A DNA stretch of 17,078 nucleotides, taken from assembly GCA_000316135.1 (NCBI GenBank), contig JH994060.1:1-17078 (forward strand), given 5' to 3'. Origin of the DNA: Trachipleistophora hominis (Eukaryota; Microsporidia; Pleistophoridae). The notes below the pieces were generated by a model. It did not search any database and had not been told where the DNA came from. It worked only from the letters and a program-made list of their open reading frames with translations. Made by a program: the position numbers and the translations under genes. Shown here piece after piece: positions 1-17,078 of this stretch (positions are counted from its first letter, which is position 1; each line of letters opens with the position of its first letter).

Positions 1-1219
1 ATCATAATTTCAAACATCGTAGTTCAATCCTGAACAAAAGAATCTCAAAATATTATATAATGATATAGTTTTATAATAGATAGAATAAATGTATAAATTA
101 TAATGCTTTTGTTGTTATGGATAGTGTCTTATCTAACATTAGTATTTTAATAATGATCATAATGCTATTGTGGGTAAATACTAAGCGTGTATTGTTCACT
201 CATTACTATTATGACAAATCAAACAGAATAAAATATCTTTATGAGTGAGTTCCTTTTTAGACAAATTCTTATCAATGATGAAAATACAAAAGATCACTAA
301 TACGGAATATTGATAATAGTTTGTTGGTGTAGGAAAAAAAATAAATTTTGAAAAGCAGTTTTACTTAAAAAATTGCATTTTATTGTCCTAGAATTCAAAA
401 ATACATTTATCGAAAACTGAGATGAAGAGAAAACAAAAGTTCTAACATTCCATGATATGAAAATGGGAACAAAACAATATTAAATCCTCTCTATAATACG
501 AAGAAAGAATAACCGAGATAATTAAAATTCACATTTAATCATATTTAAACGATAAACCCAATAAAATCATATGTGTTATAATTAACAGGTTTATTTATTA
601 AATAAACCTTTAGGCAAACGCGAAATCCAACTTAGAGTTGTCAATCTAATTCGTTTCACTTGTTCAACTGACGATTATATAATCGACACATTTTTTGTTA
701 AGTCTCTTGTTTATAAATATGATTCCCATCGTTTTGTTTCACCATTCGAAAAATCTTTCTCTGTTGTGGTTTGTAAAAATGACAAAAAAAGCAATAGCTC
801 AAAAATACAAACCTGTTGCCTTTTCATAATATATCTATTACTGACCATATTCTAGTTTAATCGTGTATATTCTAAAGTTGTTATTCATGTTATGGCTGTA
901 TTATTCTTTGTTTTCTATTCTTAGGTAGCTCAGATTCGTATATTATATAATATTTTCTTCTATAATATAATGTTCTAATATGTATTTAATGACATTTATC
1001 ACTTTATTTATACAAAAAATGAGTTGTTTGAGTTAATCTCAGGCAAAAAATAATGAACCATACCAAAAGACAAAAAAATGATAAAACAGTATGTTGATAG
1101 CAATGTGAAAAGTTATATAAGAAAGAAATACATGAGATCCTATGTTTTCATACAGAGCCATATAATTGATTTTCTACTTTACAAATATTTTTTCCACAGA
1201 TGGGGATTAAGGAAGAAAT
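1..1219. other. AT-rich intergenic region, no gene seen
   Basis: No frame stays open for a convincing length on either strand, and I see no tRNA- or rRNA-like segment. The only notable structure is a near-perfect palindrome at 587-609, listed separately. A GGGG run at 1202-1205 lies 14 bases before the ATG of the next feature and could be a degenerate G-rich start-site motif, but this is weak. Confidence 0.6.
587..609. repeat. 23-nt quasi-palindrome
   Basis: Two perfect 11-base arms (AGGTTTATTTA and its reverse complement) surround a single central T at 598. It lies in AT-rich DNA with no gene nearby. It could extrude as a hairpin, or be the footprint of a template-switch mutation. No function can be assigned. 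Confidence 0.8.
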
Positions 1220-1687
1220 ATGAACCAGGATAATAATATGATAGAGGATACCGATTCGGGGATTCGATTTAAGAACGTTAGAGCTTTACATTCCTATGAA
1301 TCAGTATGTGTGCAAGCAGACTCTGAACCAACAAACTCTGATAATGAGTACAATAAGGATGTAATGTTAAACGGAAACAGAGAAATGCTCGTGGTCTGCG
1401 AACCTAGAAGGAGTAAGTACGAATCATGCCAGGTGTATTAAGGAAATAAGTCATCAACACAGACAGAAGATATTCGAGAAAACATTGATGCTAGAGAATG
1501 TAGACATAGATGTAATCCAATAATATATCGACCAGAGTTGGCTATATCTCATGATCTAAAATCTGTTATCCAATGACTTAACTCTTATATAGGAGTAGCT
1601 AATGATGATATACTAGAAGCCACAATTTTACCTTATTTAATAGTAATATGTCTATGTATTTACGTAATCATCAAAAACCTCCCCTAG
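1220..1687 (+). pseudogene. Disrupted gene for a small C-terminally anchored membrane protein
   Basis: From the ATG at 1220 one frame runs 155 codons to a TAG at 1685-1687. It contains only two internal stops, TAA at 1439-1441 and TGA at 1574-1576. In DNA this AT-rich about a dozen stops would be expected, so the whole frame was probably one gene. The first part is polar and acidic (start MNQDNNMIEDTDSGIRF). The middle has a Cys/His patch (ECRHRCNP). The last 20 or so codons form a hydrophobic segment (ILPYLIVICLCIYVII) followed by K-N-L-P, typical of a tail anchor. I do not recognise the family. The alternatives are a 73-residue protein ending at the first stop, or programmed readthrough. 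A point-mutated pseudogene is simplest, given the other dead genes nearby. Confidence 0.6.
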
Positions 1688-1938
1688 TAGCGTGGATAAT
1701 GATATTATTTCGTCTATGAACTAATGGTCGTCAAGGCCACGATCGGCGCTCAGCGCGCCAGGAAAACTTGTTTGGTGTGTGAGGAAATGTGAGATGTTAA
1801 TTAAACGGACTTTCAAGCAAAAAAAAGGAAAAAATGAAATTTTACAACATGAAATACTGGATTAACTTATAATTCTATTTTATACACCCGTTTTTGAAAA
1901 ACGAGATAGCGCAGCTAGTTCTCTATAAATGTTTATGC
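1688..1938. other. Short intergenic spacer with a GC-rich hairpin
   Basis: No gene is seen. At 1745-1759 a GC-rich hairpin (arms GGCGC and GCGCC, loop TCAGC) stands out from AT-rich surroundings. A CGTGG at 1691-1695 can also pair with CCACG at 1737-1741. The spacer lies between the ends of two convergent pseudogenes. Confidence 0.5.
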
Positions 1939-2840
1939 TTATGTATGTTCTCCTTGGTTCTCGGATTCATTGTCAGTCTCGCATAAACCATACGAAATAA
2001 AAAAATACGCTGCATGGATGACCTTCTGCACCTCTTTGTCATTAAATTTTTTGATGAGAATGTTCATATTTTCAAGAAATTGTATGTCATTTCTACATAG
2101 CTAAATAGAAATGAGAGTGAACAACTCATCAATTTCAAGCCACGATGAATCATTTTCCGGTAATCTTTTTTAGGATGTATTCTGGCACAATCCTGGAAAT
2201 AGTCAAACAATTTGAACACGAGGCTATCGTTAACTTCTGTTGGAAAACTTTCCTAACTATCATTCTTATTGAAAACATACACGAAAAAAAGTTTTATATT
2301 TTGACTGAACCTGTCTTTGTTTTGAGTTTTGTAACACTCGTTTAATACATCAACCTCGTTAGTATTTTGTTCGAGACATAACATTGTATGTAAGTAACGC
2401 CTTTTTGTTTTTGAAGGGAAGCAAACACTTAATTAGACCGCATATCTCATCAAATGTAAGGTGCGGAACATTTCTCGTGGACGGGACCAAAACTTTATGA
2501 TAAAGCGAAATCATAAACGGTACTCTTATCCATAAATAATACATCACAAATTGCCTCCTCAACGTCCTGATCAAGACATTTACGCCTTTTCTAGAAAGGC
2601 TCCTAATTAACACGACATGCTGCACTTCTTCCTTCGTAGCTTGTCGTAGTTGCTGGTGTAAAACACAATTCATTATTTGGATTAGTGTATTTCTCCAAAT
2701 TGCGTTGAAGCGAAGACATAACCCGGTATGTTTCATAGTTGTACGAAATTATCTAAACCTGTATCCTATAGGTTACTATATACTAAATAATCGATATTTA
2801 GTTCGTCAAAGAGAAGTTTAGAAGGAAGAATATGCTCCAT
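1939..2840 (-). pseudogene. Frame-broken protein gene of about 300 codons
   Basis: On the minus strand a coding-like trail starts at an ATG at 2838-2840 (MEHILPSKLLFDELNIDYLV) and ends at TAA 1939-1941. It moves through all three frames. Pieces in order include RKCLDQDVEEAICDVLFMDK, LTFDEICGLIKCLLPFKN, a piece with EQNTNEVDVLNECYKTQNKD, LVFKLFDYFQDCARIHPK, and a last piece with VIHAAYFFISYGLCETDN. The shift near 2165-2171 falls on a run of six T and the one near 2400 in A-rich sequence, as expected for homopolymer slippage. Internal stops include those at 2101-2103 and 2253-2255. The composition is that of a helical, acidic microsporidian protein. I do not recognise the family. The longest single ORF inside (2359-2736) mixes genuine and out-of-frame codons and should not be taken as a gene. 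Sequencing error cannot explain this many lesions. Confidence 0.6.
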
Positions 2841-3072
2841 GGTTTTTCTTATTCAGTTACGTATATTAAATTGAATAAGACCATGAAAATTTTACATTAT
2901 TTATAGGTTCAATTTCGGTCGAAGAAAATTACTATTTGCAATTAATAAATGCTAACAAATTATTAAATCGTTAGAAGCGATTATATAGATATGATTTTAC
3001 TATAGCTAATGATTAGAGTAAAACGTTAATACAAAGAATATAAAAGAGTCTGATTATTAAAATAGAGTTATA
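2841..3072. other. AT-rich spacer
   Basis: No ORF or RNA gene is seen. It is upstream of both divergent remnants, the minus-strand pseudogene ending at 2840 and the plus-strand remnant starting at 3073. Any former promoters would lie here. I see no CCC-type motif next to either start. Confidence 0.4.
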
Positions 3073-3234
3073 ATGAACAAATTTATTAATAAGATGTTTC
3101 TAATACATCTTTTACTAGTACTTATTTGCAACTATACCACAACGAAAATTTTTTATTGAACTGCAAACTAGAAATACCAAAAACTAGCAAGATCGTTTTT
3201 GCCTGTGAAGTAAATAATAATTGCTGGAATTACC
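3073..3234 (+). pseudogene. Remnant of a secreted-protein gene
   Basis: The ATG at 3073 opens a 28-codon frame with the pattern of a signal peptide. A short basic start (MNKFINK) is followed by a hydrophobic core (MFLIHLLLVLICNY) and a polar stretch, ending at TGA 3157-3159. The reading continues well in the next frame from about 3150 with LNCKLEIPKTSKIVFACEVN and then NNCWNYHQYF, to TAA TAA at 3229-3234. The shift falls on a run of six T at 3149-3154, so a one-base slip is likely. Three cysteines in the mature part suit a secreted or surface protein. The second frame stays open from 3235 to 3464, but that part is AT-biased and I would not extend the gene into it. Confidence 0.45.
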
Positions 3235-5698
3235 ACCAATACTTTTAATAACAGCGTGTTCGAAATTCATTATTGTTTAGAAGAGTTGGGAGTTATCAGT
3301 TGGCAGTATTTATAGTGACTGTCATCCCCAACAAGTATAATTTATTATTTTTTAATTTTTTTCTTCTCAAATTCACCGTTCTAATCCGTTCACGGTTAAA
3401 TTATCGTTATACTTTGTATTTTAGATATAAACTAGATAGTTATTTTTTGTGTTCTAACCATTAAACTCATAAATTTCTATTCCATATACTAACTGCGTTA
3501 TTCCATTCATATAACAAAGTAAAAATCAATGTGAGTTGTTTGATGTTGTTACAATTAGCTTTATTTAGGTCTCCCACGTTTTATATGCGGTAAAATATTT
3601 TCTCATTTGAATAGTAGCTTTGACATTACGACAATTAAATTTTTTATCTATTCATTTCCTCTAGCTCAGCATTTTTCAATGGTTATTCAAAAAATCAATT
3701 ATCAGTAGACATTAGTATTTAAATACATCTGTTCAAAGATTGCTGAGTGACTTTAAAACGTACGAATTGAATAACAACATATACCTTTTCCTTTATACAA
3801 AAACGTGGAATAAAGTTCTATGAGATGTTTTCTAAACCGATCAATTAGCTGCAAATTATTCTTTAATTATTAATATCTGTATTAAAGGTGTTGTTTTTCC
3901 CACCAATTATTTTCCAATGAATTATTTAAAAATTATCATGCTATAATTTACGTATATAAATTTTAACTACAACTAGTGTGAATATGGATATAGAGATGAT
4001 ATCATTATGTAAAACATAATATTGAAAACGAGACTTGTTTTAGGATCTGATTTTCTTAAAAAATCTACAGTTTGTCATCTTTGTACTTATGAAAAATATT
4101 TGATGGTGATACTGAACTTGTACTAAAACGTCCATGACACCTAAACAACAAGTTGCCATAAAGACTAGCTTAAATCAGAACAAGTTTAATTTCGGCGTAA
4201 AAAATCATATATTCCAATATTGAAACCAATTAACTGTGTTAATAATTGTTTTTGGACAATGAGTTCTTATGGTTAACAAGGGTATATAGATTGATATTCC
4301 ATTACCACGTACGTGCACTTATTTATTATGATCAACATCTTGGAGATAGTTGTAAATATGCTAAATTGTAAACTTTATACAAAAAAGGTTGACGAATTAT
4401 TAGAGGCCTTCAAAAGTGGTTAGTGTAAAAAATAAATTTCAACCAAAAGATATATTTATCTGCAAAAGTTACTCGTACTTTACCACATAAAACGTTGGCA
4501 TTTGTTTATGTTCATAAATAATGCTGTAATATAGACGTTACGTGATTATCGGTTTTATAATACGCTACCGATAGCTCTTTCCACTTGTACAAGATTATGA
4601 TAGCGGTTCGCAGTAATTTGATTTAACTAACTATATAGCACAGATGAATGATGGTAATCAAATTTTATTATTATATGTAGAAACAATGCCGCATATTTTC
4701 CCAATTAGATAAAAATTAACCGTTAGCATTTGTAGAACAGCCGTTGCTATGTATTTTATAATCATGTTAAAAGGGTGCGATAACGTAATAATAAGATAAT
4801 ATGATACTTTACACTATGAATCCCATGAAATATTGTTTAGTTAGATGATGTGAACGATAGAGATAATTAAACCGAATTTTAGTTAAACCAATCACATGAA
4901 ATGAACCGTAGTATACCACATTAGACACAAATAACGTATGTAATAAAATTAGAATGTAGAGACGATAAATAAATTTATTTTATTAAAAGTTACTAATTTT
5001 TAATATTCAAAAATTATCTTCTCAATATCTTGAGATATTGTATTTGAATTGGGATGACATATTGTCACCTGAAATATTAAAATAGACTAGTACTATAAAT
5101 TATTCATCAGTTATAACACACATTATCATGTAATATTAAATTAAATTTATTTTTCCATGAAAATAGCTATTTACGCTAATAAACAAACTTTGTTGGCACA
5201 TCGAACATTTATCAAACAGCGTTAATTAATTTGTGATTCATAAGTATATTTTCTTAATGGAAAAGAATAGGTTCATATATTAATCTTTCAGCCGTTATAT
5301 CTCCACAAAAAATTAGAAATAGTGTTTTATAATATTATTCATAGTAATACAATAATACGCATTTCAACGACTTCGAAAATCACATCAGTAACAGATTCAA
5401 CTCAAGGTTCACCAAAACATTGTACCTATCCCTTTATACAGCTTCTAAGCACTTTGGAATTTAATTTTAGAATCTTAAACTACGTATAAGAGAAGGAATA
5501 TTCTGATTTGGACTAGATTAGCTGCATCAAAATATGGAATGTTAAAATATAAAGGTGATTTTTAAAAAGAATTACGCCAATGTTACCACAGAAATCAATG
5601 ATATTTTAATTTAGCCACATTAATTAACTGTTTAAAATCATTAACTGAAGTCAATTACTATTAAACAAAACGAACACTCTATAAAAACGTCCCTTTAT
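3235..5698. other. Long AT-rich gene-free region
   Basis: No intact gene, tRNA or rRNA is seen. Short coding-like scraps occur on the plus strand: a 28-codon run before a stop near 4229 (ending FNFGVKNHIFQY), and a 31-codon ATG frame at 4328-4423 (start MINILEIVVNMLNCKLYTKK). They may be bits of dead genes or chance. A quasi-palindrome at 5023-5040 has 8-base arms CAATATCT and AGATATTG. Confidence 0.5.
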
Positions 5699-5701
5699 TC
5701 A
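5696..5701 (-). promoter_or_regulatory. AATAAA poly(A) signal overlapping the stop codon
   Basis: On the coding strand the gene ends TGAATAAA, so the canonical hexamer begins inside the stop codon. Very short 3' ends of this kind are known in microsporidia. The site supports a 3' end close to the ORF end. Confidence 0.5.
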
Positions 5702-6928
5702 AACTATACGTATTTTACATAAATATTCACCTAGATCTTGGAGTGAAACTAGTGAAAATTCATTATTCTCGTGATATGAGCTCAAAATATCACTAAAATT
5801 GGGAGGTTGACCCTTAAGTACATTAGTAATTCTATTGTGTATTTCCTTAAGCACTTTGTATTCTGGACAGCTGTCTTCTCTTAGTTTTTCAAACATATCC
5901 ATGAACAGTAAATAATTATTGGTTATCAAGAGAAATCTCAACCAAGCATATACTATTTTTTTCATTATCTGAATATTTGAACACTTTAAATGGTGTTCTT
6001 TGCTTGCACACTCACCTACTTCATCATAAACATCTGTATGATTGGTTCTCCGTTCTACTTCATCGGCCGTGGCTTTTTTCGTTTCTTTGCGCTCTTTTTG
6101 GCAAATAAAACTGTTTTCATCTGGATATTTAAATACATTCTCCGACATACTAACCTCTAAGCAGATTTCATTAAAACTTAAATTACGATTTAAGAGCTTT
6201 TCATCATTTGTCACCATGAATTGCTTCATACATTCGTTTAAAAAAGATTTTACAATTCTTATCCTGTCTATATTTACAATCCGTAGAATATTTAACAAGT
6301 CTCTATTTGGCAAGGTTATCATTTTTGTTGAAATATACTCATATGAAGGCTCATACACTTCAAAAACGTATTGAGGTACTTTATAGTCTTCATGCCATCT
6401 ATCTAATACTTGTTTCATCAATTCATCACATTTTAGCAAATAGGCTGCAATAAATGCCATTCTTAACGGCAGCTGCCTGATTTTCTTATTTAAAATGCTA
6501 ATATATCTTTTATCTACGTTATTAACAATGTACAAATAATATAAAAAAGCCTCTTCATTTGTTTCAAATTTGAATTTGTATGATGATGTGTTCTTTTTAC
6601 GATTCTTTCGACCCCTTGCATGGATAACAAATTTGAAGCTAAGAATACACAAAATAACTAGTAGAGCTGACTTATAGGTCCGTTTTCGTCTCAATAAAAA
6701 GTCAATTATTTGTTTCTCATCCTCACCTGCACTTTCTACCAACATTTGCAGCGTTCCTTTTACTTCACCAAATACTTTTAAACTATTAATTTTGAAGAGA
6801 TATTTTATATCCTCTTCTGTCTTGTAATACTGCAGTGCTGTGTAGTTGTTAATTCTCTTGTTTGTAATATCACGAGCAAGTTGATAATACTTTTCCAAAT
6901 CCAGATTCAGTTCAAGAAATCTTTGCAT
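5699..6928 (-). CDS. Hypothetical helical protein, 409 aa
   Basis: This is an intact single-exon ORF with no stops, and I do not recognise its family. The start is supported by a C-rich motif (ACCCC on the coding strand, plus positions 6937-6941) eight bases before the ATG, the usual microsporidian arrangement. The product is predicted to be mostly alpha-helical and rich in Lys, Ile, Leu and Tyr. Residues 88-103 form a hydrophobic stretch (ALLVILCILSFKFVIH) bracketed by basic clusters at 80-86 and 105-112, a possible single membrane segment. Residues 120-240 and 318-372 resemble stacked helices such as those of vesicle-coat or nucleoporin scaffolds, but nothing specific supports that. A charged linker lies at about 270-315. 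The stop overlaps a poly(A) signal (TGAATAAA). Base composition is slightly less AT-rich than the flanks. The gene is surely real; its function is unknown. Confidence 0.88.
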   Translation of the reverse strand: MQRFLELNLDLEKYYQLARDITNKRINNYTALQYYKTEEDIKYLFKINSLKVFGEVKGTLQMLVESAGEDEKQIIDFLLRRKRTYKSALLVILCILSFKFVIHARGRKNRKKNTSSYKFKFETNEEAFLYYLYIVNNVDKRYISILNKKIRQLPLRMAFIAAYLLKCDELMKQVLDRWHEDYKVPQYVFEVYEPSYEYISTKMITLPNRDLLNILRIVNIDRIRIVKSFLNECMKQFMVTNDEKLLNRNLSFNEICLEVSMSENVFKYPDENSFICQKERKETKKATADEVERRTNHTDVYDEVGECASKEHHLKCSNIQIMKKIVYAWLRFLLITNNYLLFMDMFEKLREDSCPEYKVLKEIHNRITNVLKGQPPNFSDILSSYHENNEFSLVSLQDLGEYLCKIRIV

Positions 6929-6936
6929 GGCCTGCA

Positions 6937-6941
6937 GGGGT
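6937..6941 (-). promoter_or_regulatory. CCC-type start-site motif of the 409-aa gene
   Basis: ACCCC on the minus strand lies eight bases before the ATG at 6926-6928. C-rich motifs just upstream of start codons mark microsporidian genes. Three ORFs in this window carry one, which helps separate real genes from chance ORFs. Confidence 0.6.
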
Positions 6942-8333
6942 AAACTTTTCCATAAATAATTCTTCGCGAAACCTTAACCATGTGTTCCGAAATGAATTAC
7001 AGATTTTCTTCATACATTCTCGCATATTGTTGTTTTATAATTCACTCTACGATTTTTTATATATAATCAAAATCGTTAACTGAGTGTTCACTGTTCTAGT
7101 TTGGAAGAGCTCTAAAATTACAGCAAAAATTAGTAATTCATAAAAAAAATTGTACGACAGGTAAGTATGAATTATCGTTATACAAATTTAAATTAACATT
7201 ACGGCTGTAAAAATATGTAGAATTCATCTCAGTTATAGATTATTGGGTTAAAAATAATTTGATATTTACTTTGGAAAAATTGATGTACAGTGTTTTTAAA
7301 AGTAAAACATATCACTAATAGCATCTCAGGTAAAACAGAAAATTATCAACTGCCCATTTCTTGTCAAATTCGAAAAAAGTACCAGGTTAACAGATTTGTT
7401 CTTTTTTACTACTAAAAACAATTTAAAAGCCTAGCTAATTGAATATGCGAATCAACCTGTCTCTAAAACGCACAATATCGCAAATTTCATGTGGAACAAA
7501 GACATTTCTGCGGTAAAGGAACAAACATGTCTTAATAAGTCATAGTATTTGGCACAGCTGACAATAGCCAACTTGTATATTTTCATTTGCCTTTGATGTT
7601 ATATATGAATAATCAAAATTCGTTGCGAGAAATTTGATGAATATAGATTTTTCATATTTTATATAGGGTGATCTACTTAAACATGAAGCAACAAATTCTA
7701 ATTTAAGGTGATAAATGTTAAATAACACATTAACCATGGGTATCAAGTCATAAAACAATTAAGATTATATTGTTCTATAGAGTCTATGACTGAGAGTAAT
7801 CGGTTATCGTTGGGTAATTTAACTCTACGATTGTAATGAACTATAAAATACTTGTATTGATACAAAAGCTTGTTATTAATAATACATTACAAAAATTTGA
7901 TTAATAAAATACGTTGTAGTATTAACAAAAAGACAATTCGTAACACATTGATCAGGAAGGAAAAAAAAATACTCTGGTTTTTAAAAACAAACACCGTTAT
8001 GTGTTGTTATTTAACTTATTCGTTTTAAAACTCATTCAACAATCTTTTACCGAGAACATACAAAAAAACCAATGCTCATTAGAATTAATTTTTCTACCCT
8101 CTTTTGAAAAATGCTGAGTTAGAAGAAGTAAATTATAAAACTGAAAATGGAGATAACTAAAGAATATATCAACAAACTATACTAAGTTTTTCTTTGACTT
8201 TATGAACAGAATAGTTCAACTGGTTTTTAATAGTAAAATATGACGATCTTATCTCCACAACGTGTTTGTCAAATAAACCTTACAAAAAACCAAGACAAAT
8301 TATCTCAAAGTGTAAACCAGCGAAAATATCCGT
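6942..8333. other. AT-rich intergenic region
   Basis: The part next to 6941 should hold the promoter of the gene ending at 5699. The part next to 8333 holds the 3' end of the gene that stops there. A 72-codon minus-strand ORF (7540-7758) has no start-site motif and poor composition, so I do not call it. No RNA gene is seen. Confidence 0.5.
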
Positions 8334-9653
8334 TTAATTAATTTTTGTAAGAATATACTTTTGAGAGGAGCGTATGTTAATACCAACGTAGATTTTACTA
8401 TTATCCCATTCAGTAGAAAGAACCATAACACCCCTGTACGTGCCGGCAAAATAAGAAAAAGAGCCTCTCAAAACGTATCCACAGATAATATTTTCATTAT
8501 TTGAGCAATAAATTCGAGCACATCTCTGCAAATTTCCTTTTTTACATTCAAACAAATACGTAAATTGTAAACTTGGAACACTCGGAAACTTATATGGAAA
8601 AATAAAGTCTTCGTGTTGTGCACTACTTCCTATACTCATGATTTGATTGGTATTACTAGGTCGCGATCTGTTGCCAATATTTTCCTCTAACGCTGAATAA
8701 TCATATCTTTTTCCTTTCGGAGTTCTAAAATATTTTTGATTTTCCGTATAAAACACTTCCCTTTCGTATTGTTTATACCAATCACTATTTACATCATCAA
8801 AGGGAAAAACAAGAAATCCATAGTTTAGTGATAGTCTCAAGTATTCCTCCAGTCCTATTACCCTCCAGATTCGAATTATACTACCAAATATTGTTTTCAA
8901 GTTTCTAAAAATGAGAAGGAGTGAAAAGTCTGCATTGAGCTTCAGCACGCAGTTATCCTTCATATTGCTAAAATAATCATCTATTGTTACATCACTCCTT
9001 GTCATAGTGCCATTTATGAGCTCATAGATACCAGAGCTCGACAGTTCTTTTTCCTTTAATATCTCGAATATATTCTCTGCTTCACAATAAATTTGTTTTG
9101 TTTTTAGAAATTCTGGTATTGTATCAAGCGTTAGAAGAATAAGGAATTTTTTTGTCTTGAGCATTTGAAACTTACTCCCATTTCTGAGATATAGTCTAAA
9201 GTTAGCATCGATGTTAGATGTATAAGTGTTTTTTTGACTGTAATTCTGATAAATATCTTGTTTCTCTGTGTTTATAGATGTGCTGACATCATGATAGCCG
9301 TAGTTTTTGAGCTGTTGTTCGATATCACAATCTATACGGTAAACATAACCATGACAGTACACCATGCTATAGATAAAATTTCCACCTTTGTGCAAAAGCG
9401 AAGAGGTCTTTTCGAACCGTTGGTATGCAATTTTATGTCCATTAACACATATCATACTGAATCGCTTACCATAGTAATTTCCTTTCTTATTTCTTTTACG
9501 CTTTCTGTGGTGAGATGATGAACGCCTACGCAAGTAAAACGGCAGTTTTTGGAATAACATGTTCTTCTTCTTACGTGGAGGTAAGGATTTTTCTAGTTCC
9601 TGTATTTCATTACTGCGTTCATTGACAAATTCGTGGGCATCGATAAAAGTCAT
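8334..9653 (-). CDS. Hypothetical protein with nuclear-localisation-like basic region, 439 aa
   Basis: This is an intact single-exon ORF whose family I do not recognise. The ATG is preceded by TACCC only two bases upstream, which fixes the start. The N-terminal 25 residues are acidic and helical. Residues 26-58 then carry dense basic clusters (PPRKKK, and LRRRSSSHHRKRKRNKK), a bipartite nuclear-localisation or nucleic-acid-binding pattern with a Ser/His spacer. The middle (about 60-300) is mixed alpha/beta with hydrophobic helices at 168-178 and 241-262. A polar linker lies at 310-350. The C-terminal third (about 355-435) looks beta-rich, with aromatic and glycine residues (VLRGSFSYFAGTYRG) and Cys pairs at 370, 377, 383 and 391. 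No signal peptide or clear membrane segment is seen. A nuclear or RNA-associated role is inferred only from the basic region. Confidence 0.87.
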   Translation of the reverse strand: MTFIDAHEFVNERSNEIQELEKSLPPRKKKNMLFQKLPFYLRRRSSSHHRKRKRNKKGNYYGKRFSMICVNGHKIAYQRFEKTSSLLHKGGNFIYSMVYCHGYVYRIDCDIEQQLKNYGYHDVSTSINTEKQDIYQNYSQKNTYTSNIDANFRLYLRNGSKFQMLKTKKFLILLTLDTIPEFLKTKQIYCEAENIFEILKEKELSSSGIYELINGTMTRSDVTIDDYFSNMKDNCVLKLNADFSLLLIFRNLKTIFGSIIRIWRVIGLEEYLRLSLNYGFLVFPFDDVNSDWYKQYEREVFYTENQKYFRTPKGKRYDYSALEENIGNRSRPSNTNQIMSIGSSAQHEDFIFPYKFPSVPSLQFTYLFECKKGNLQRCARIYCSNNENIICGYVLRGSFSYFAGTYRGVMVLSTEWDNSKIYVGINIRSSQKYILTKIN

Positions 9654-9655
9654 TT

Positions 9656-9660
9656 GGGTA
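9656..9660 (-). promoter_or_regulatory. CCC-type start-site motif of the 439-aa gene
   Basis: TACCC on the minus strand ends two bases before the ATG at 9651-9653. With so little room, the 5' untranslated region must be extremely short if transcription starts at or near the motif. Confidence 0.55.
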
Positions 9661-10098
9661 CGAGCCCAGCAAAAATTTAAATATTTTAGGTGTAATACCG
9701 TAGTATGAGCGAATCTAACAATAAAAATGTTTTAATTAGCATTAAAGTATTATAAATTGTTTTTTAATATTTTAATATATTGCTCTGCATGTTTTTAGCA
9801 GGAAGTTACATCCGTAAATCTTACGCAAAAGAAATTTTTTCACAAAAATTTGCAGTTTAAATCGGTAATAAATATTAACGTGCATAATCCATTATTAGTG
9901 GTCCACCAATTCAAGCATGTTTAAAATGAAAATTAACTATGTCAAAAATAAATTAGAATAGTTCTTACTTTCGGAGTGAAAACGGAAAATTTACACATGC
10001 AAACTGTTCTAAGTTATTTTGTAGGTGTGTGATTGTCCAGATTTATGTATAAGAGTGTTTCTTACAGGCGATTTACAAACTGATTTTCATATAATTTT
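9661..10098. other. AT-rich spacer, no gene seen
   Basis: This lies between the promoter of the 439-aa gene and the 3' end of the retroelement remnant. If the remnant kept a 3' long terminal repeat it would lie here. I see no second copy of any of this sequence in the window, so an LTR cannot be shown. Confidence 0.4.
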
Positions 10099-10101
10099 TT
10101 A

Positions 10102-10278
10102 TAAAAGAGCCTTAATCATCCTTCTACATACCTTATCATATAAATCCTCATTGAGTCCCTTTAGACCGATCATGGATATCAGTCTGTTGTTCATGAAAGA
10201 AACTCGTATACCAAGTCGCATCCTCACAGCAACAGAAAGGTATGCTGTAAGCGCAGTAATGGTCTTAATTTTTTTTGA
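10102..10278 (-). pseudogene. Integrase C-terminal fragment
   Basis: This is a 59-codon open stretch ending in TAA at 10099-10101 (last residues CRRMIKALL). It follows the catalytic-core piece and reads ITALTAYLSVAVRMRLGIRV, similar to the region after the catalytic E in Ty3/gypsy integrases, where a tyrosine/asparagine helix precedes a G-x-x-P-F motif. It joins the upstream piece across a run of eight T at 10269-10276, another likely slippage site. A plus-strand ORF covering the same bases (10025-10282) is a shadow. Confidence 0.45.
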
Positions 10279-10413
10279 CTAAAAGAGTTTTATTTAAAAA
10301 TCTTGTGACTGACCTTCCATCTTATTATCATCATCATCGTTTAAATCATCTCATGCTTCCTCATTGTCAACAGCAAAATAATAAATCTCTTTTCCGGCCC
10401 GCTAGGGCTTCAA

Positions 10414-10433
10414 CCATGGCCTTCGGTCCATGG
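10414..10433 (+). other. Hairpin with UUCG-type loop
   Basis: Arms CCATGG/CCATGG plus an inner C-G pair, with one C/T mismatch, enclose TTCG on the plus strand. A cUUCGg loop is an exceptionally stable RNA tetraloop. It is the left-most strong hairpin of the GC-rich island. Confidence 0.5.
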
Positions 10434-10474
10434 AGATCCTGCATAGCTCATCAAACAAACATATCCTACACGGC

Positions 10475-10490
10475 CAAAACCTGAGTTTTG
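10475..10490. repeat. 6-bp perfect hairpin
   Basis: Arms CAAAAC and GTTTTG enclose CTGA. It lies within the integrase-core remnant, next to a second short inverted repeat (GTTC-GGC-GAAC, 10490-10500). Confidence 0.5.
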
Positions 10491-10547
10491 TTCGGCGAAC
10501 CATAGACGTAAGTCAAAGTATATCGCATAACACAACAGGGACTTCAG

Positions 10548-10568
10548 CAGTATGCTGACAACATACTG
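10548..10568. repeat. 7-bp perfect hairpin
   Basis: Arms CAGTATG (10548-10554) and CATACTG (10562-10568) enclose a seven-base loop. A 10-base palindrome, CTCCTAGGAG, follows at 10578-10587. Confidence 0.6.
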
Positions 10569-10635
10569 ATCATCTCCCTCCTAGGAGCGCCCAAGCTACT
10601 CCTGCCCTGGGTTATACACATTTACTACTTCGCAT

Positions 10636-10669
10636 AAGGCCTCATACTTTGACCCTGGTATGAGGCCTT
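10636..10669. repeat. 12-bp perfect inverted repeat
   Basis: Arms at 10636-10647 (AAGGCCTCATAC) and 10658-10669 are exact reverse complements around a ten-base spacer. Twelve perfect pairs at this spacing are not expected by chance in a region this short. It is the strongest short stem in the island. Confidence 0.85.
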
Positions 10670-10763
10670 CCTTCCATCTACGGCTGCATATCTTACAGCC
10701 TATCACCTCCTTGCATATTACAGGCCTTGTAGGTAGGCCCTGGGGTCTGCAGGCGGACATTTT

Positions 10764-10957
10764 CGCTGGCAACAGCGCTCTAGGATAGCATTGTTGACAA
10801 CTCGTGGACACGTAAGCGTGTCACTCTTCGACCGCTTAAAAGCGGTACGTGCCTGCATAGCAGGCTTTTTTGCCATCCTGTATCGGCAAGACAGCCTTCC
10901 TTACGGCACAATAGTGCCGCTCGTATTCCCTGAGTCTGGCTGTACTCGGGGATACGA
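10764..10957. repeat. Array of seven adjacent hairpins
   Basis: Consecutive inverted repeats with very short loops fill this stretch. They are CGCTG-GCAA-CAGCG (10764-10777), GACACG-TAAG-CGTGTC (10807-10822), ACCGCT-TAAA-AGCGGT (10831-10846), GCCTGC-ATA-GCAGGC (10851-10865) followed by six T, a 7-bp stem with one G-T pair (10868-10891), CGGCAC-AATA-GTGCCG (10904-10919), and a 14-bp stem with one bulge (10921-10957). Four perfect 6-bp stems with 3-4 base loops in about 115 bases greatly exceeds chance. On the plus strand the first loop is GCAA, a GNRA tetraloop. The array overlaps the integrase remnant. It may be a folded RNA encoded on the plus strand or the result of repeated template-switch mutation. 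Confidence 0.75.
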
Positions 10958-10977
10958 TGCCCGTATTCCGAGCTTGT

Positions 10978-11076
10978 TGCCGACCAGTGATTCGTCGGGG
11001 TCTGTCACCTCACAAGGCAGACTCTGATCTGAAGCAGTGATCTTAAAATGCAAATTATAGCTTGCATGACACTTCT
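10978..11076. repeat. Weaker inverted repeats at the edge of the island
   Basis: CCGAC/GTCGG (10980-10998), GTCTG/CAGAC (11000-11022, with an inner CCT/AGG) and ATGCAA/TTGCAT (11048-11067) continue the hairpin pattern as GC content falls. GAAG at 11031-11034 can pair with CTTC at 11073-11076 around the last one. Each alone is weak. Confidence 0.4.
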
Positions 11077-11189
11077 ATTTTAGGAGTATTCTAAGGAACT
11101 TTTTCTCTCAGTGATTTTTATCAAACGATAATTCCTGGCAACTTCTCATCCGGCCAAGGAACATTATTCTGTGTTCAACCCATCGTTTA

Positions 11190-11309
11190 TACTTCCATAG
11201 GAGATATTGCGCGATTTCTCCTTTCTGCTAAGCGGGCATTTTCCTCTGTAAATCGGACAGTTGTGCCATATTCAATTAGACATAACGAATTCGCCGATAC
11301 AAATTTTGA
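11190..11309 (-). pseudogene. RNase H domain fragment of the retroelement
   Basis: This is a 40-codon open stretch between a TAA at 11310-11312 and a TAA at 11187-11189. It contains IEYGTTVRFTEENARLAERR and AISPMEV, resembling the Ty3/gypsy RNase H segment in which I-Y-S-R is followed by L-T-x-E-x-x-Y and a catalytic-region E. An overlapping frame just downstream reads QYLLWKYKRWVEHRIMFLGR, like the following helix of that domain, which implies a frameshift between them. Confidence 0.4.
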
Positions 11310-11386
11310 TTAATGTGGTCTATTAGCTGTAAATCACTGGATTAACGACAACAATCTTCCAAGATGATAGGGGTGATTAATACCAG

Positions 11387-11440
11387 AAGAGTTGGTTTGG
11401 TTGGATGTTGTTGTGCGAGATGATAGTTAAACCAACTCTT
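11387..11440. repeat. 12-bp perfect inverted repeat, 30-base spacer
   Basis: Arms AAGAGTTGGTTT (11387-11398) and AAACCAACTCTT (11429-11440) match exactly. They lie between the reverse-transcriptase and RNase H remnants, outside any readable coding piece. Confidence 0.8.
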
Positions 11441-11502
11441 ATTTAGGAAAAGGAGGTGAATTAAATAAATTCGCTCAGTTAAAGTTTCTTATCACACTCT
11501 TA

Positions 11503-11562
11503 TCGGTGCCTGATAGATTGATAGGCCCTATAAATTAAAACATCTTCCCTGTCAAGTAATGA
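11503..11562 (-). pseudogene. Reverse-transcriptase catalytic-motif fragment
   Basis: A 20-codon open piece includes DREDVLIYRAYQSIRHR. It matches the pattern around the YxDD motif of Ty3/gypsy reverse transcriptases (aspartates, then V-L-I-Y-S and spaced His residues). The catalytic pair is disrupted. Upstream in another frame, bits reading SITPFV and LSQKEVLDHYL fit the MPFGL...VL segment that precedes it. The fragment is short, and its weight comes from lying at the right place relative to the RNase H and integrase pieces. Confidence 0.4.
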
Positions 11563-11700
11563 TCAAGCACTTCTTTCTGAGATAAAAAATTAAAAAAAAG
11601 TGGGTTAAACTAAACAAATGGAGTGATTGACACTGACGATCATTTCACAAATACAGTAAAGAACTATCATGTAATCTACTCGTGTCTTAGTAAGATAGTA

Positions 11701-11933
11701 ACATACGATTCATATTACAACAACCATTAATACGACGTAAACGAAAGTTTACGTAATTAAATGATTGTAGAGCACTCTTCTTCAAATTACTACAGCCTAA
11801 TGTGGGCGATTAATAAAAAGTGGGCTTAGACAATAATTAGATATAAATAAAATGAAAACAAAAGCGCGAGTAACGCGAAATGTTATTTCATAACAACAGT
11901 AAAAATTAACTAAAACGTTTTAATGCCGATTTA
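11701..11933. other. Spacer downstream of the NTT gene
   Basis: No gene is seen. It holds a hairpin at 11735-11754, a CGCG-AGTAA-CGCG repeat near 11864-11876, and a 12-base palindrome TAAAACGTTTTA close to the NTT stop. An ATTAAA hexamer about 15 bases after the NTT stop on the minus strand could act as a variant poly(A) signal. Confidence 0.4.
11735..11754. repeat. 8-bp hairpin with GAAA loop
   Basis: Arms ACGTAAAC and GTTTACGT enclose GAAA. Imperfect pairing extends outward to about 11725 and 11763, giving a stem of about 15 pairs. It lies at the 5' edge of the retroelement remnant, near the NTT 3' end. Confidence 0.7.
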
Positions 11934-13628
11934 TCAACTTGCTGTAATAGGCTCATCCTCATCATCACTAAACATCTTCTTTGTTCCCTTAAACAAGTCA
12001 ATATCAACGTTCTTTCTCAGTTTAACCGATTCCTCATACTTTCCGGCTAGATAATTGATAAGATAGAACCAAATGGACACGATAACAAGTGATATCATCA
12101 GGTAGAAGAATGACGACCTACGAATATCAGTGGTGTTTATAAGTTGGTTGGATACCAGCAGGAGAAGTGCTCCACCAGCTTTACCAAGCTTGCCACACAC
12201 ACCGTCGTAGATTCCCTTAAATCTTGCACGATATCTCTTATCTATCTTCATGCTTAATGTTTCCTTTGCTATATCAAATGCCGCGTACTTGCAGATTTTG
12301 AAGCATGCCACGGCTAGCAGGCATACCGTCTCCTCAAACTGCAAAAATTTTCGCCGTGTATCATCGCTAACTTCTGACTTGAGCATCATGTTTATTGGCG
12401 GAATGTTCTCTCCATCCCTTCCTGTGTTGAACAATGCAAGTGTGAAAACGCCCACAAAACCAGCAGTTGCGATCAGTGGGGGAATTATACCGACTATTTT
12501 CCAACCTCTACTTTCAATAAATCGTGAAAAGGGGGAAATAAGCAGCAATATAACCACTAGACCGGTTATGAATTGTATTATTGACGATTTAAGAAGAACG
12601 TGGTTACCAGTATCTTGTTTGGTCGCCATAGAAACGATTTTCAAGCTACTCTTGTAACACGATTCAATCATATTCGTACCGATGTTGTACGCGAGCACGA
12701 TTCCACATATTGCAAGGACGAGTTTTGATTTGAACATAAGGCGTATGCCCTCCGTGAAGGATAGTTTCACCTTTTTTGTTCGTTTCTGCTCCTCTCCTTC
12801 AATCGTGTACAAGACTCTGCCCAGAATTTTTCTTTCTAAGATAATTTGGAAAGCGAGTATCGCCAGGCAGAATATTGCGATGATAACAAATGCTATCCTA
12901 AGCATCATCTGCTTCGTGGAGTAATCGACGAGCTTATTATAATGCTGATAACCCAACATTGTTATCGATGATCCCATCAGCGCCACATTTGACAATACGT
13001 AGAAAAGTGGCATGAACCGGATAAACTGCCTGAACGGACAAACATCGTTTGAGAACGACATAAATAAGAGCGACAGCACCATCGTACCCCACACCTCAGA
13101 TGCCACGAAATGCAGCGTAGATGTCCAGCAGTTCAACGTAAGTACGATTGCAGACACTGATTCTAACCCCTTATACGCCATTTTAGAATCACTAAAATCA
13201 TCAGTCGCGTTGAAATTGCTTGATTCAATTGTGTCCTGTAACGGCAACACCACAACACCATAAACCAAGAAATAGACGCCGAAACACGCTACAACGTAAC
13301 TCAAAATTCGCTTATTTGATGAAAAGATAAGACACTTCTGTACCAACGCGGAAGCCGCTATCGATACGGGCGGAACGTATATCAGCTTGAGAAAACTGAT
13401 AGACGCGGGAAGCTGCCTTTTGATGATGAACGAATCCTTCAACTCTCGTATGACAGAATAAATATAAGCGATGCAGAAGAACATCCCGCCCATGAGCCAG
13501 AACTTGCTATCTTCGACCTTTGATACCCTGTAAATTCCGAAGCGACCAGCACGCCTCACAGCCTGCTGTTCAACTTCGTTCTCTGTTAGCGTTCTTATCT
13601 CATGAGCTAAATCATTTTGATTTGGCAT
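11934..13628 (-). CDS. ADP/ATP translocase, NTT (Tlc) family
   Basis: This membrane protein exchanges host ATP for parasite ADP, or imports nucleotides, across the cell or mitosome membrane. Microsporidia need it because they make little or no ATP and cannot make purines. At 564 aa it has the usual family length, with about 11-12 hydrophobic segments (for example 45-60, 108-129, 180-192, 244-263, 302-318, 350-366, 378-400, 506-526). Positions matching the four charged residues essential in plant and bacterial NTTs are visible: K64 in RELKDSF, E178 in SEVWGTMVLSLLF, E322 in NMIESCYKSSLK, and K455 in FDIAKETLSM. N-glycosylation-like sites fall in the loop near 138-142. The tail is acidic (SDDEDEPITAS). 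The ATG follows a CCCCC motif by seven bases; stops TGA and TAA are in tandem. GC content is visibly higher than in the flanks. The family entered microsporidia by transfer from bacteria. The copy looks intact. Confidence 0.95.
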   Translation of the reverse strand: MPNQNDLAHEIRTLTENEVEQQAVRRAGRFGIYRVSKVEDSKFWLMGGMFFCIAYIYSVIRELKDSFIIKRQLPASISFLKLIYVPPVSIAASALVQKCLIFSSNKRILSYVVACFGVYFLVYGVVVLPLQDTIESSNFNATDDFSDSKMAYKGLESVSAIVLTLNCWTSTLHFVASEVWGTMVLSLLFMSFSNDVCPFRQFIRFMPLFYVLSNVALMGSSITMLGYQHYNKLVDYSTKQMMLRIAFVIIAIFCLAILAFQIILERKILGRVLYTIEGEEQKRTKKVKLSFTEGIRLMFKSKLVLAICGIVLAYNIGTNMIESCYKSSLKIVSMATKQDTGNHVLLKSSIIQFITGLVVILLLISPFSRFIESRGWKIVGIIPPLIATAGFVGVFTLALFNTGRDGENIPPINMMLKSEVSDDTRRKFLQFEETVCLLAVACFKICKYAAFDIAKETLSMKIDKRYRARFKGIYDGVCGKLGKAGGALLLLVSNQLINTTDIRRSSFFYLMISLVIVSIWFYLINYLAGKYEESVKLRKNVDIDLFKGTKKMFSDDEDEPITAS

Positions 13629-13635
13629 TCTTATC

Positions 13636-13640
13636 GGGGG
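13636..13640 (-). promoter_or_regulatory. CCC-type start-site motif of the NTT gene
   Basis: CCCCC on the minus strand lies seven bases before the ATG at 13626-13628. This is the clearest of the three start-site motifs in the window and fixes the start codon. Confidence 0.7.
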
Positions 13641-13648
13641 TAAAAGCT

Positions 13649-13670
13649 TTTTGATAAAATTTTATCAAAA
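13649..13670. promoter_or_regulatory. 22-bp perfect palindrome upstream of the NTT start
   Basis: The half-site TTTTGATAAAA (13649-13659) is followed directly by its reverse complement (13660-13670). The centre is about 31 bases upstream of the ATG and 20 beyond the CCC motif, in the core promoter. A perfect two-fold palindrome could bind a dimeric regulator; GATA-type factors recognise GATAA, which occurs once on each strand here. A chance AT-rich palindrome of this length is possible but unlikely. Its role is inferred from position only. Confidence 0.5.
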
Positions 13671-14538
13671 CGAAAATATTAATATAATATGTGATATGAT
13701 TTGATAGGGATGATAAAACATATTAAAACGCGTTTGTTTGCATTTAATAAGTGTGTTTTTATTATTTTCTAGTTCTATTATACGTTTAATAAAAAAATTT
13801 GCTGAGATAATAAATGATAAGAAAATAGAAATTTGATAATAAATATTACAACGTAAATTGTTACAAGAGCGTACAAACACTACAAGTACGATAAAATACA
13901 TTGCAAAACAAACATAGCATCATAAAAATGAAATAATATTAAATTAGGAAAAATGAATAAAATTGGAATATTTTTTTCTGGAATTAATTGGTTCGTAAAT
14001 ATGCTTAAGCACTCCTTTTTGTGAACTTTTAGTAAGTAAATTATACACTAATAAGATTAAACATTATTATTAAACCATCCTTTAACCAAAACATTCACCA
14101 ATCATGAAGATTTTTGACAAGCAAGTATTCATATCATGAATTTTGTATAGCTGTCAAAGTAAATTACGTTTTTCTATTTTTCTAATAATATTTTTTGACA
14201 ATCATCATTTTAAGTCGATGATAAACTTAACCATTAGTTATTTCACAACGCTGTATGAGATATAAGCAGCTAAATAAATTTGAGATTCTGTAACTCTGTA
14301 TATTGTATTATATTTTAGTGTTATGTTACCTTTAGAGTATTAAAATATGCTTTAACTCTTGTTCATTGTATACTACGTTTATTTTTAGTACGTATATGAA
14401 ACATTTCATGGTAGAATATATTTTATGTGTTTGTAATATAACCAAGCTATGTATTTTTAAATGAATTAATATATTTTAATTGTTTTGATATATTGTCATC
14501 GGCTTCTGATAAAAATACAATAATACTTTAGATTCCAC
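13671..14538. other. AT-rich intergenic region
   Basis: This is upstream of the NTT gene. A 78-codon minus-strand ORF (13665-13901) overlaps the palindrome, has no start-site motif and is low-complexity, so it is not called. No RNA gene is seen. Confidence 0.5.
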
Positions 14539-14577
14539 CATGAATTATTAACTAAAAGAGGTAAATTATAATTCATG
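14539..14577. repeat. 10-bp perfect inverted repeat
   Basis: Arms CATGAATTAT (14539-14548) and ATAATTCATG (14568-14577) surround a 19-base spacer. It immediately precedes the coding-like scrap below, whose ATG lies in the right arm. It could be a transposon end or a regulatory dyad; nothing decides between them. Confidence 0.6.
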
Positions 14578-14673
14578 ACGACCAGAAGAGACTGTCTTGC
14601 GCTAGTTCACGGAGAAGGTTTTTCGACCACGAAACTGTTAAGATGCTATTTGACTATTAAACAATGTTGGTAG
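14575..14673 (+). pseudogene. Short coding-like scrap, 32 codons
   Basis: An ATG frame with less AT-rich, protein-like composition begins MTTRRDCLALVHGEGFSTTK and ends at TAG 14671-14673. After the stop no frame stays open. It may be the first exon-like piece of a dead gene or transposase. I do not recognise it, and chance is a serious alternative. Confidence 0.2.
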
Positions 14674-16689
14674 AAATATATATCAGAAACACGCGTGTAG
14701 ATGTTTGTTCACTCCCAGTTGTTATAAATTATCGATACATCAATATACAAATAACAGCATGTAGTTCTCATTCCAGCATTATTTTAAAAGTTTAATAATA
14801 AAAATAGCATTTATTTACCATCGTTGTAAATTTTTCATTAAAAACCAGCTATGCTATTCCTCTTAGAAGATAATAAATCAACTTTGTATACATTCGTCAG
14901 TATTTATTTTTTTTTGTTCTATATTTTTACGCCCACCATTTTTGCGCTACTCGTGTTTCGGAGGTTAAACAAATTGATTCTCAGCCGGCGGCAATATTTT
15001 TCTTTGAACATTTCTGGTAATTGCTTTTTCTTAAAGCAAAAGCTGTTAAAATCATGATGAGAGTTAGCATATTAATAGCGTAATATGTGGTTTCTAATTA
15101 GTGACATGCGGTTCGAAATAGATGTAGTAGAAATCAGCCTTTATAAATAAATCTCGTTCACTAAAAAAATCGTTAGCAAAAGATTACACAGTGAGTTCCA
15201 GAAAATGAGGATGATGCAACGATATTTTATTTTTTATTTATTGCTAAAACGGTATAAAAATACTTATTTTTCTCAAACTGACTAACCAGCTCACAATTTG
15301 TCTTTTTCACTAGCGGATAATGTTTTGGTGAGAGATTTCTCATTAAATATGTCGTTTACAGCATTTTCCTGGACATTAATTAAATTTATTTTTTGCCGCA
15401 AAAGTACAAACGATATTTGCGGTATATATGAAGCCTGTACATCATCTTTTAGTAGGTGAATCTAGTGTATGATACTTCGCTTATTCTGATACCAAAATGT
15501 ATTTGATTGCCCGAAATGATACTTGATTGATTTTCTATTTCACATGATGAAAATAATAGTTTAACATGTAATGGTTTATAAAAAAGATGTCTGTAAACGC
15601 TGTCGATATAATAACAAAAGATTTCGTTCATTCAAAATTTGTCTACCGTGATTCATAATTATAACGTTTTTTCAGAAAATAAAGTGAATTACAGACTCTT
15701 TACTTGTGCCATTGTTCAAAAAGTTATTGAATAATTCACTACACATTTTTACCGCCAATTGTTCATTTTACTGTTACCGCCACAGTTGAATGAATATTAA
15801 ACATTCAGGAATATTCCGATGTTCAAAAAAATGTGAATTAGACACTTTATTGCTTGTTAAATGATAACGACCGGAAAAAAGTTTTGTAGACACTACATTC
15901 GAAACAAGCTAGCGCTGATTTGACAATTGATTAAATGAATCTGTATTCAAACGAAGATTTTGAAATAGAGATCGTCGGATCATGGACTATATGACGATAA
16001 GTAATATTTAATAAATTATATGTCGCTATCACTATCAATATCGGTTTATGAATATTATAGTTTTTCGTCCTGTCTTGATGATAATTTATCTTAAATATTG
16101 TTTTACAGATATAAATAAACACTATAATTCATTAATAGTTCGATTTGTTCTTACGAAACTGAACAGTTCTTGTAACACTACTGGAACATTTGAGGAACAT
16201 ATCAATATAAGATTCAGCTTTAATCGTTTTACGACATATTTGGTTTAAAATATATATCAACATGGGTGTAAGTACTATCATTATTCTCGTGTGTCATTAA
16301 AAATAGAAAACGATTTCTCAAAAATGTTACCCGGCATTATATACTGTTGAATAAAATACTTTCGTGGTTTGGGTGGACTAAATAGCATCAACTTTAAAGA
16401 AAAGAGTTGTTGAGATATTTATAAGCCTAGATGCTGAGAAAATATGAAATAAAATGAAAAAATCAGAAATGTTAGCAAAAAGACTGGAAATGAACGTTAA
16501 AAAGCCGTAAAAATCAAGGATGATGGGGCTAATGCTAGCCTGATAAAATATATAACTGTGGACAAGTTAATGATTACAGTAATGATACCTATTATGATCA
16601 ATTAAATTAAATTTGCTTGCTTTTTGCTTGTACCACAGATTACACATTTCATAAGTAAATTTTAGATGAGTTACCGTCTACCATAGCCT
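14674..16689. other. AT-rich gene-free region
   Basis: Three ORFs of 60-68 codons (14851-15057 plus, 15449-15631 minus, and an overlapping pair near 15931-16248) lack a start-site motif and have AT-driven composition. The first would encode a Phe/Leu-rich membrane stretch. From about 16440 a short ATG frame reads MKKSEMLAKRLEMNVKKP before a stop and may belong to the transposase remnant that follows. No RNA gene is seen. Confidence 0.45.
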
Positions 16690-17078
16690 CGTCGATCATC
16701 AATTATGATAGCAACAGAATGGTTCATGAGAAGTATTTGTAGGCTGGATTAAGAAAAAAATAGTAGATCACGAAAAAGATAAGTTCTGATGATATATGGT
16801 GCTATGATCTTCACGTGAATGGTCACCAGAGTTGTAGCGGACTATCAAGGATTTATTATTGAGATTGTTTCACTGGAGTGATCGGATGTATTCTGAAACA
16901 TGCTTATGTCACAGAATCGTGCTTAATGCCTAGTATGCAAAGTTTTATAACCCATTGTTTCATATCGCGCACCTTACATGGTGATTATAGTATATATCAG
17001 GTTGTTATTCGGCTTCCTGGTTTGATTTTTAACGTTTTTTTGTTGTTTTCTTGAGACGACGAGATTCCTTTAATGTAC
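16690..17078 (+). mobile_element. Decayed PIF/Harbinger-like DDE transposase fragment, cut by window edge
   Basis: Plus-strand pieces in shifting frames line up with the DDE_Tnp_4 (Harbinger) catalytic domain. SLVDHQL near 16690 could be the I-D-G-x-H-I region. VTRVVADYQGFIIEIVS (frame open 16819-16878) resembles the V-x-V-V-x-D-x-x-G-x-I-x-x-V strand with the second acidic residue. WSDRMYSETCL from 16874, one frame on, fits W-P-G-S-x-x-D-x-x-x-F-x-x-S-x-L with a small loss. GDYSIYQ from 16980, in the third frame, fits G-D-S-x-Y. The spacing between acidic positions is about 50 and 47 residues, close to that family. Several stops and at least two frameshifts show it is dead. No terminal inverted repeat is visible, and the rest lies beyond the window. 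Confidence 0.4.

Follow-up and report, generated by a model that had tools for sequence, protein, structure and literature searches.

Introduction

Short interspersed nuclear elements (SINEs) that are derived from tRNA, 5S or 7SL RNA are short, non-coding and A-tailed, and their 3' end is partly shared with a long interspersed nuclear element (LINE), while retrozymes are non-autonomous retroelements that carry a self-cleaving ribozyme. Non-autonomous deletion elements derived from R2 are also reportedly on record. At the 5' ends of R2 elements, ribozymes resembling that of the hepatitis delta virus (HDV) release the element RNA from co-transcripts (PMC3774820), and the L1Tc/ingi elements of trypanosomatids carry the HDV-like ribozyme Pr77, some members being inactive (PMC4035085). 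The non-long-terminal-repeat (non-LTR) elements of the microsporidian Trachipleistophora hominis were reported to carry frameshifts and to be inactive in all probability (PMC3486916), and a table in PMC4202319 gives no LINE family for Vavraia culicis. The word "SINE" is absent from the main texts of both of these papers, in which "ribozyme" was not looked for, and our searches of open papers showed no report from microsporidia of either HDV-like ribozymes or SINE-like elements. In this study, we analysed a stretch of 17,078 nucleotides of T. hominis (contig JH994060.1, positions 1 to 17,078; hereafter, the window), which contains an array of short hairpins. These hairpins very probably lie within the non-coding body of a LINE-mobilised, non-autonomous non-LTR retroelement, ~970 nt long, with an HDV-like ribozyme at its 5' end.

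The element shares an HDV-like fold with L1Tc/ingi (the keywords of PMC4035085 include LINE, SINE and SIDER), but its host is microsporidian, its ~970-nt body is full of hairpins, and the likeness to Pr77 is one of predicted fold. The 3' region of R2 is used by the reverse transcriptase (RT) (PMC3774820), and one of two LINE RT pieces searched here best matches R2; the target sites of our element, however, are scattered and not in the 28S ribosomal DNA, as far as the flanks show, and it gave no evidence of coding. Like the tRNA-, 5S- and 7SL-derived SINEs, it is apparently non-coding, A-tailed and shares sequence with a LINE, but it is much longer, has no B box in five copies and no tRNA-like part was found. 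The retrozymes are alike in being non-autonomous retroelements with a self-cleaving ribozyme, which is predicted here; our candidate, however, is a single, HDV-like ribozyme at the 5' end and not a hammerhead, for which there was no Rfam match in the window or in eight loci, and no exact head-to-tail dimer was seen in the loci examined. The partner LINE is of the same sort as the decayed LINEs of T. hominis (PMC3486916). No match was obtained when a plasmid collection was searched by similarity and viral contigs were searched for one 23-base pattern in exact form, neither set being expected to contain microsporidian DNA.

Repeat family and insertion

The genome searched comprised 5,508,218 bases in 119 contigs (labelled loci are denoted by L, contigs by C). 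Related copies of the hairpin region were indeed found, as a 641-base query around the hairpins returned at least 19 rows genome-wide. With the copy on C116 as the blastn query, 30 rows were obtained, four of which were merged as pieces or an inner match, and these represent at least 26 copies. As many as 24 of the 26 extend to a common 3' end (query base 969 or beyond; the tail ends at 972), the exceptions lying on C3 and C90, while their starts vary. Nine begin no more than 18 nt from the common 5' end and 14 at inner points; in two further copies, which lie on C93, the 5' end was detected by the covariance model alone, and the 5' side of the C57 copy runs into an N stretch. Five of the inner starts fall at 797-804, at the edge of the LINE-shared domain (L040-L043 and L045 on C45, C10, C97, C16 and C7), and they represent either a hotspot of truncation or a subfamily of short copies. 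The copies without large losses (L010, L011a, L012, L015, L016 and L017) measure 936-973 nt, and others that have the 5' end are shorter, e.g., 783 nt in L018. The GC content of the full copies is 48-51%, and the copies that reach the 3' end terminate in A-runs, mostly of six to eight bases.

Clear target-site duplications surround short copies (CGTATGAAAA in L040, TTAAATTCAT in L041 and TGACAAACTTAGA in L042), and the duplication of L046, GCGATTAAATAGAG, extends further with two mismatches. When the element ends were placed by hand, nine of 21 copies had a flank score of at least 20 compared to eight of 418 mismatched flank pairs. The element presents the features of a non-autonomous, SINE/SIDE-like non-LTR retroelement: dispersed copies, a common A-tailed 3' end, variable 5' truncation, duplications, a 3' domain shared with a LINE and no coding gene. 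Its sequence supports copying from RNA and insertion by target-primed reverse transcription. Because the A-tail, the common 3' end, the 5' truncations and the 5' ribozyme fold all agree, the predicted sense strand is the minus strand of the window. Identity among twelve copies was 62-88% (66 pairs), the tails of L014 and L019 being 94% identical over 285 nt, and no sign of very recent activity was seen among the copies examined.

The hairpins did not appear to be the remains of a gene. Differences between copies were spread evenly over the positions modulo three, both in five close copies (0.145, 0.145 and 0.143) and in 12 copies (0.275, 0.258 and 0.270); one 120-nt block in the five close copies was uneven (0.175, 0.070 and 0.084). 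A coding remnant in the element body was rejected, since three-base periodicity was absent and the three long open stretches that were found (144, 161 and 142 codons) fall on differing strands.

The partner LINE

A genome-wide search for RVT_1 gave nine rows. Judged by eye, two of four RVT_1 loci were Ty3/gypsy-like (L054 and L057) and two were non-LTR (L055 and L058). Compared with the PDB proteins, one non-LTR RT piece best matched R2 (E 2.6e-9; LINE-1, 1.3e-5), and nothing better than E 0.15 (LINE-1) was obtained for the second. LINE fragments are scattered elsewhere in the genome, and because no intact copy was found, we only infer that this LINE was autonomous. A domain of ~50 nt near the 3' end of the element is common to both (81% identity over 54 nt in L064), and its hairpin reads GCCC-TAGC-GGGC in the element and GTCC-CAGC-GGAC in the LINE copy L063. 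The ~115 nt beyond this domain differ between the element and the LINE, L045 excepted, and both end in an A-run. In L045 (C7:13134-13533), the LINE 3' region continues straight into the last ~170 nt of the element, which makes this locus either a chimera or a LINE subfamily bearing the tail of the element; no second junction of this kind was present among 42 rows. It was also observed that a ~2.9-kb segment, in which a truncated LINE accompanies a gene that by eye is leucine-rich-repeat-like, lies on two contigs, C111 and C107, with 95% identity (L063 601-3491 and L064 1-2893).

The shared ~50-nt domain and the similar A-tailed ends are also what would be expected if the element were not an independent family but an internally deleted LINE, in which a ribozyme-bearing 5' untranslated region had been joined to the 3' untranslated region, and R2, which itself has a 5' ribozyme, has reportedly given rise to deletion elements. 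We regard this origin as possible, though doubtful. No LINE copy bearing a ribozyme was found, the nine matches to the 5' end all belonged to the element, and when seven LINE/LTR loci, with no full-length LINE among them, were compared with one element copy, the matches (E < 1e-3) were confined to ~796-965 of the element.

The predicted 5' ribozyme fold and transcription

The better-kept full copies of the proposed retroelement open, from its very first base, with a predicted HDV-like fold in which P1 (7 bp), P2, P3 (3 bp), P1.1 and P4 follow in order as a nested double pseudoknot. At the 5' end of L018, RF00094 (HDV_ribozyme) scored 34.8 bits and RF02682 (HDV-F-prausnitzii) 28.2 bits, and because these values are below the curated cut-offs of 50 and 44, we call the element only HDV-like and not a member of either family. 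Genome-wide, at E <= 10, RF00094 had two matches (E 0.0056 and 0.068), both at element 5' ends, and RF02682 had three, of which one (E 0.007) coincides with one of the two RF00094 sites and the others lie elsewhere (E 2.2 and 7.05; 61 of 181 candidates scored).

Pairing of P1, P2, P3 and P4 was retained in 93 of 96 cells in the four best-kept copies (3/500 shuffles were as well paired), with four double changes compared to 1.5 +/- 1.0 in the shuffles (14/500), so that the compensatory changes looked for were present at the ribozyme; this set was picked by hand and may overstate the pairing. Across nine copies, 86.1% of the cells were paired compared to 84.5 +/- 0.8% after shuffling (26/500) and seven pairs were double-changed (10/500 shuffles as high); the paired cells amounted to 72.9% in P1, 88.9% in P2, 85.2% in P3, 77.8% in P1.1 and 98.4% in P4. 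The nine-copy values are understated because MAFFT misplaces P1 in some copies. The cytosine in J4/2, whose position we take to be that of the catalytic C of an HDV-like ribozyme, was unchanged in all nine copies and, by eye, in two L022 matches as well. This catalytic C is among the few rigidly conserved bases of HDV-like ribozymes, and mismatches in P1 or loss of the conserved G in L3 can accompany a lack of cleavage (PMC3774820); degenerate copies therefore need not be active. A covariance model that was built from the four copies found 11 sites in 32 sequences, all of which were in element copies (four being the training set). In L010, L012, L014 and L018, the shared sequence begins at ribozyme base 1 and the flanks are unrelated; the 10-bp duplication of L016 ends immediately before the first base of the model and the 11-bp duplication of L018 ends 4 nt before it. 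Two ribozyme-like 5' ends lie ~0.5 kb apart in L022 (C93), apparently in two adjacent element copies with internal losses.

It could be argued that the element is a retrocopied non-coding RNA whose 5' fold is fortuitous or non-functional and which used an internal or host promoter. Scores under the Rfam cut-offs and a degenerate P1 in several copies would fit this explanation, as would the behaviour of a loose motif scan, which fires by chance: it gave 51 matches in 3.34 Mb of shuffles (~1.5 per 100 kb) and 54 in 966 kb of shuffles with the composition of the element (~5.6 per 100 kb), and of ten matches in 348 kb of loci, only three were element 5' ends and seven were elsewhere. Matches resembling the A box of RNA polymerase III (Pol III) were also present in three of five copies. 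Nevertheless, we consider this explanation unlikely, as the fold, which in several copies begins precisely with the first base of the element, shows double changes and conserves the J4/2 cytosine, while none of the five copies has a Pol III B box and no tRNA was detected in five loci (bacterial settings). With neither of these, nor any SINE-related Rfam RNA in the window or in eight loci, the element does not resemble a classical SINE. The lack of a B box fits a dependence on host transcripts, which it does not prove.

The hairpin array

The first-pass annotation had described the array as seven perfect, short-loop hairpins, back to back. Five such hairpins, with stems of 5-6 bp and loops of 3-4 bases, are present (10764-10777, 10807-10822, 10831-10846, 10851-10865 and 10904-10919), but the sixth (10870-10889) has a loop of ten bases and the seventh is the bulged stem that, as described, closes the array at 10957. 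The near absence of spacers holds for some of them; the gaps among the five stems are 29, 8, 4 and 38 nt, the longest of which contains the sixth stem. Folding was stronger than in shuffled sequences on both strands, i.e., -79.7 vs. -59.0 +/- 4.5 on the plus strand (z -4.56) and -82.0 vs. -57.4 +/- 3.8 on the minus strand (z -6.55), and 0/200 shuffles were as good in either case. These scores are flattered by the array bounds, which were favourable by choice. When the 194-nt segment was moved by 11 nt, z was only -2.99 on either strand, and at least one of 39 background segments on the minus strand (mean z -0.22, sd 1.2, minimum -3.66) was below the shifted one. Hairpins are a property of the whole element: the majority sequence of 12 copies has 15 perfect stems that are 6 bp or longer and lie within 45 nt, compared to 4.8 +/- 2.0 and a maximum of 11 in 200 shuffles, and a 966-nt copy folded with z -6.5 in the sense and -5.0 in the antisense orientation (20 shuffles each).

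Five stems of the RNAalifold consensus of the array, with 31 pairs, had 91.6% of the cells paired in 12 copies. Compensatory changes were detected, although they were modest: nine pairs were double-changed compared to 5.8 +/- 1.7 in the shuffles (32/500), and the consensus stems had 12 double-changed cells (5/500 shuffles as high). The minus-strand fold of the window copy was paired in 82.5% of the cells of the 12 copies with 22 double-changed cells (1/500), while its further pair types were within the range of the shuffles (333/500). The pairing support for the array is thus real yet modest, which is expected if most copies decay once they are inserted.

The loops GCAA (hairpin 10764-10777) and TTCG, which had been singled out as stable tetraloops, do occur, but only on the plus strand, which is antisense to the element; the sense strand reads TTGC and CGAA. 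The plus-strand tetraloops are probably incidental because the element RNA would be read from the minus strand, and a plus-strand RNA with GNRA or UUCG loops was rejected for the same reason. The GCAA hairpin is intact in the window copy and in L012; L009 and L011a are among several copies in which it is broken. The earlier idea of a folded non-coding RNA antisense to the element was therefore close as to the kind of molecule and wrong as to the strand. No Rfam family reached its threshold in the window, where the scans ruled out a tRNA or another Rfam RNA.

A further conjecture traces the element back to a self-cleaving RNA, rich in hairpins and similar to a viroid or a retrozyme, that lived free-standing in a microsporidian and, by capturing the 3' recognition domain of the LINE, turned into a parasite within the genome of a parasite. 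We hold this to be quite improbable; if it were true, the partly conserved array would be what is left of an RNA replicon rather than just filler. That the array is a DNA feature, i.e., a hairpin transposon resembling a miniature inverted-repeat transposable element or a template-switch hotspot, as had also been proposed, is hardly credible, since the many perfect short inverted repeats that favour it belong to a retroelement that appears to be RNA-copied, with an A-tail, a 3' end common to its 5'-truncated copies, duplications that vary in length and a LINE-shared 3' domain, and a DNA transposon with hairpin ends was rejected because the element is A-tailed and neither of its ends, by eye, is an inverted copy of the other.

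The window copy and its surroundings

The coordinates of the features in the window are collected in Table 1. The window copy is 65-88% identical to 11 other copies and has a GC content of 47.7% compared to 31.8% for the window. It starts at element position ~200 and is therefore 5'-truncated; with the first ~200 nt, the ribozyme region was lost and, judged from its sequence, this copy is a dead relic. Sequence from the LINE 3' region flanks it on either side, and the two matches (query 1971-2189 and 2172-2223) overlap by 18 nt, so that the site shows the copy to be an insertion. Its target-site duplication is imperfect, ~15 bp long, and its formal flank score is only 13. No integrase was seen in the window, in which no search was aimed at one. 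The POP1-like protein that is encoded nearby is notably short, and two open reading frames on the minus strand, 5699-6928 (409 aa) and 2359-2736 (125 aa), had no Pfam match.

Table 1. Features of the window in T. hominis contig JH994060.1
Feature	Position	Strand	Evidence or remark
POP1-like RNase P/MRP subunit, 439 aa	8334-9653	minus	POPLD E 9e-10, POP1_N E 4e-8
LINE relic, downstream of the insertion	10217-10268	minus	LINE match
Target-site duplication, 3' side	10253-10268	minus	TTAAGACCATTACTGC, imperfect
5'-truncated element copy	10269-11032	minus	blastn, shared sharp ends; C116 query positions ~200-972
A8 tail at the element 3' end	10269-10276	minus	T8 on the plus strand; like the A-runs of other copies
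3' domain of ~50 nt, also present in the LINE	10387-10435	minus	7 nt of the domain missing in the window copy
Hairpin array	10764-10957	minus	Inner part of the element body; alignment with 11 other copies
Target-site duplication, 5' side	11033-11046	minus	TTAAGATCACTGCT; LINE matches overlap there
LINE 3'-region relic, upstream of the insertion	11033-11381	minus	LINE matches at 11029-11243 and 11288-11381
ATP/ADP carrier	11934-13628	minus	Pfam TLC E 2e-54; 85% identity to a Vavraia culicis protein

Discussion

Several observations weigh against a LINE-mobilised retroelement with a 5' ribozyme. The Rfam scores were below the curated cut-offs, and among the 14 control genomes, RF00094 and RF02682 also matched, at E <= 10 and below cut-off, in four and eight, respectively. 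Over nine copies, the ribozyme pairing is just 86.1%, with P1 the lowest, and several copies are degenerate. Twelve of the 21 copies, including that in the window, were below the flank score of 20, and a full-length LINE was not found in the genome. The conservation of the array is modest, with its nine double-changed pairs, and the strand test was nearly flat: G-U departures barely outnumbered A-C departures (102 vs. 91), and did not do so in stems of at least 8 bp (26 vs. 29). Finally, the longest open stretch was longer than in 95% of the shuffles in three of nine copies.

With these points taken into account, the following course of events may be proposed. The element would be transcribed inside longer, read-through transcripts, from which the ribozyme, to judge from its predicted fold, would cleave itself and free an RNA that starts at the exact 5' end of the element, i.e., base 1. 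The RT of the LINE would take up the folded RNA, hairpins included, via the shared 3' domain and the A-tail, and target-primed reverse transcription would insert it, frequently stopping early. The hairpins probably keep the uncapped, 5'-hydroxyl RNA compact or bind a protein, although this is a guess.

If this reading is true, HDV-like ribozymes exist in Microsporidia, whose genomes are reduced, and aid the spread of a non-coding retroelement there; the association of HDV-like ribozymes with non-LTR elements would then reach another deep branch. The element offers a worked case in which the ribozyme, the hairpin body and the LINE-shared tail are separately testable. It also serves as a caution that, where the genome of a microsporidian is AT-rich, GC-rich arrays of hairpins may be fragments of retroelements.
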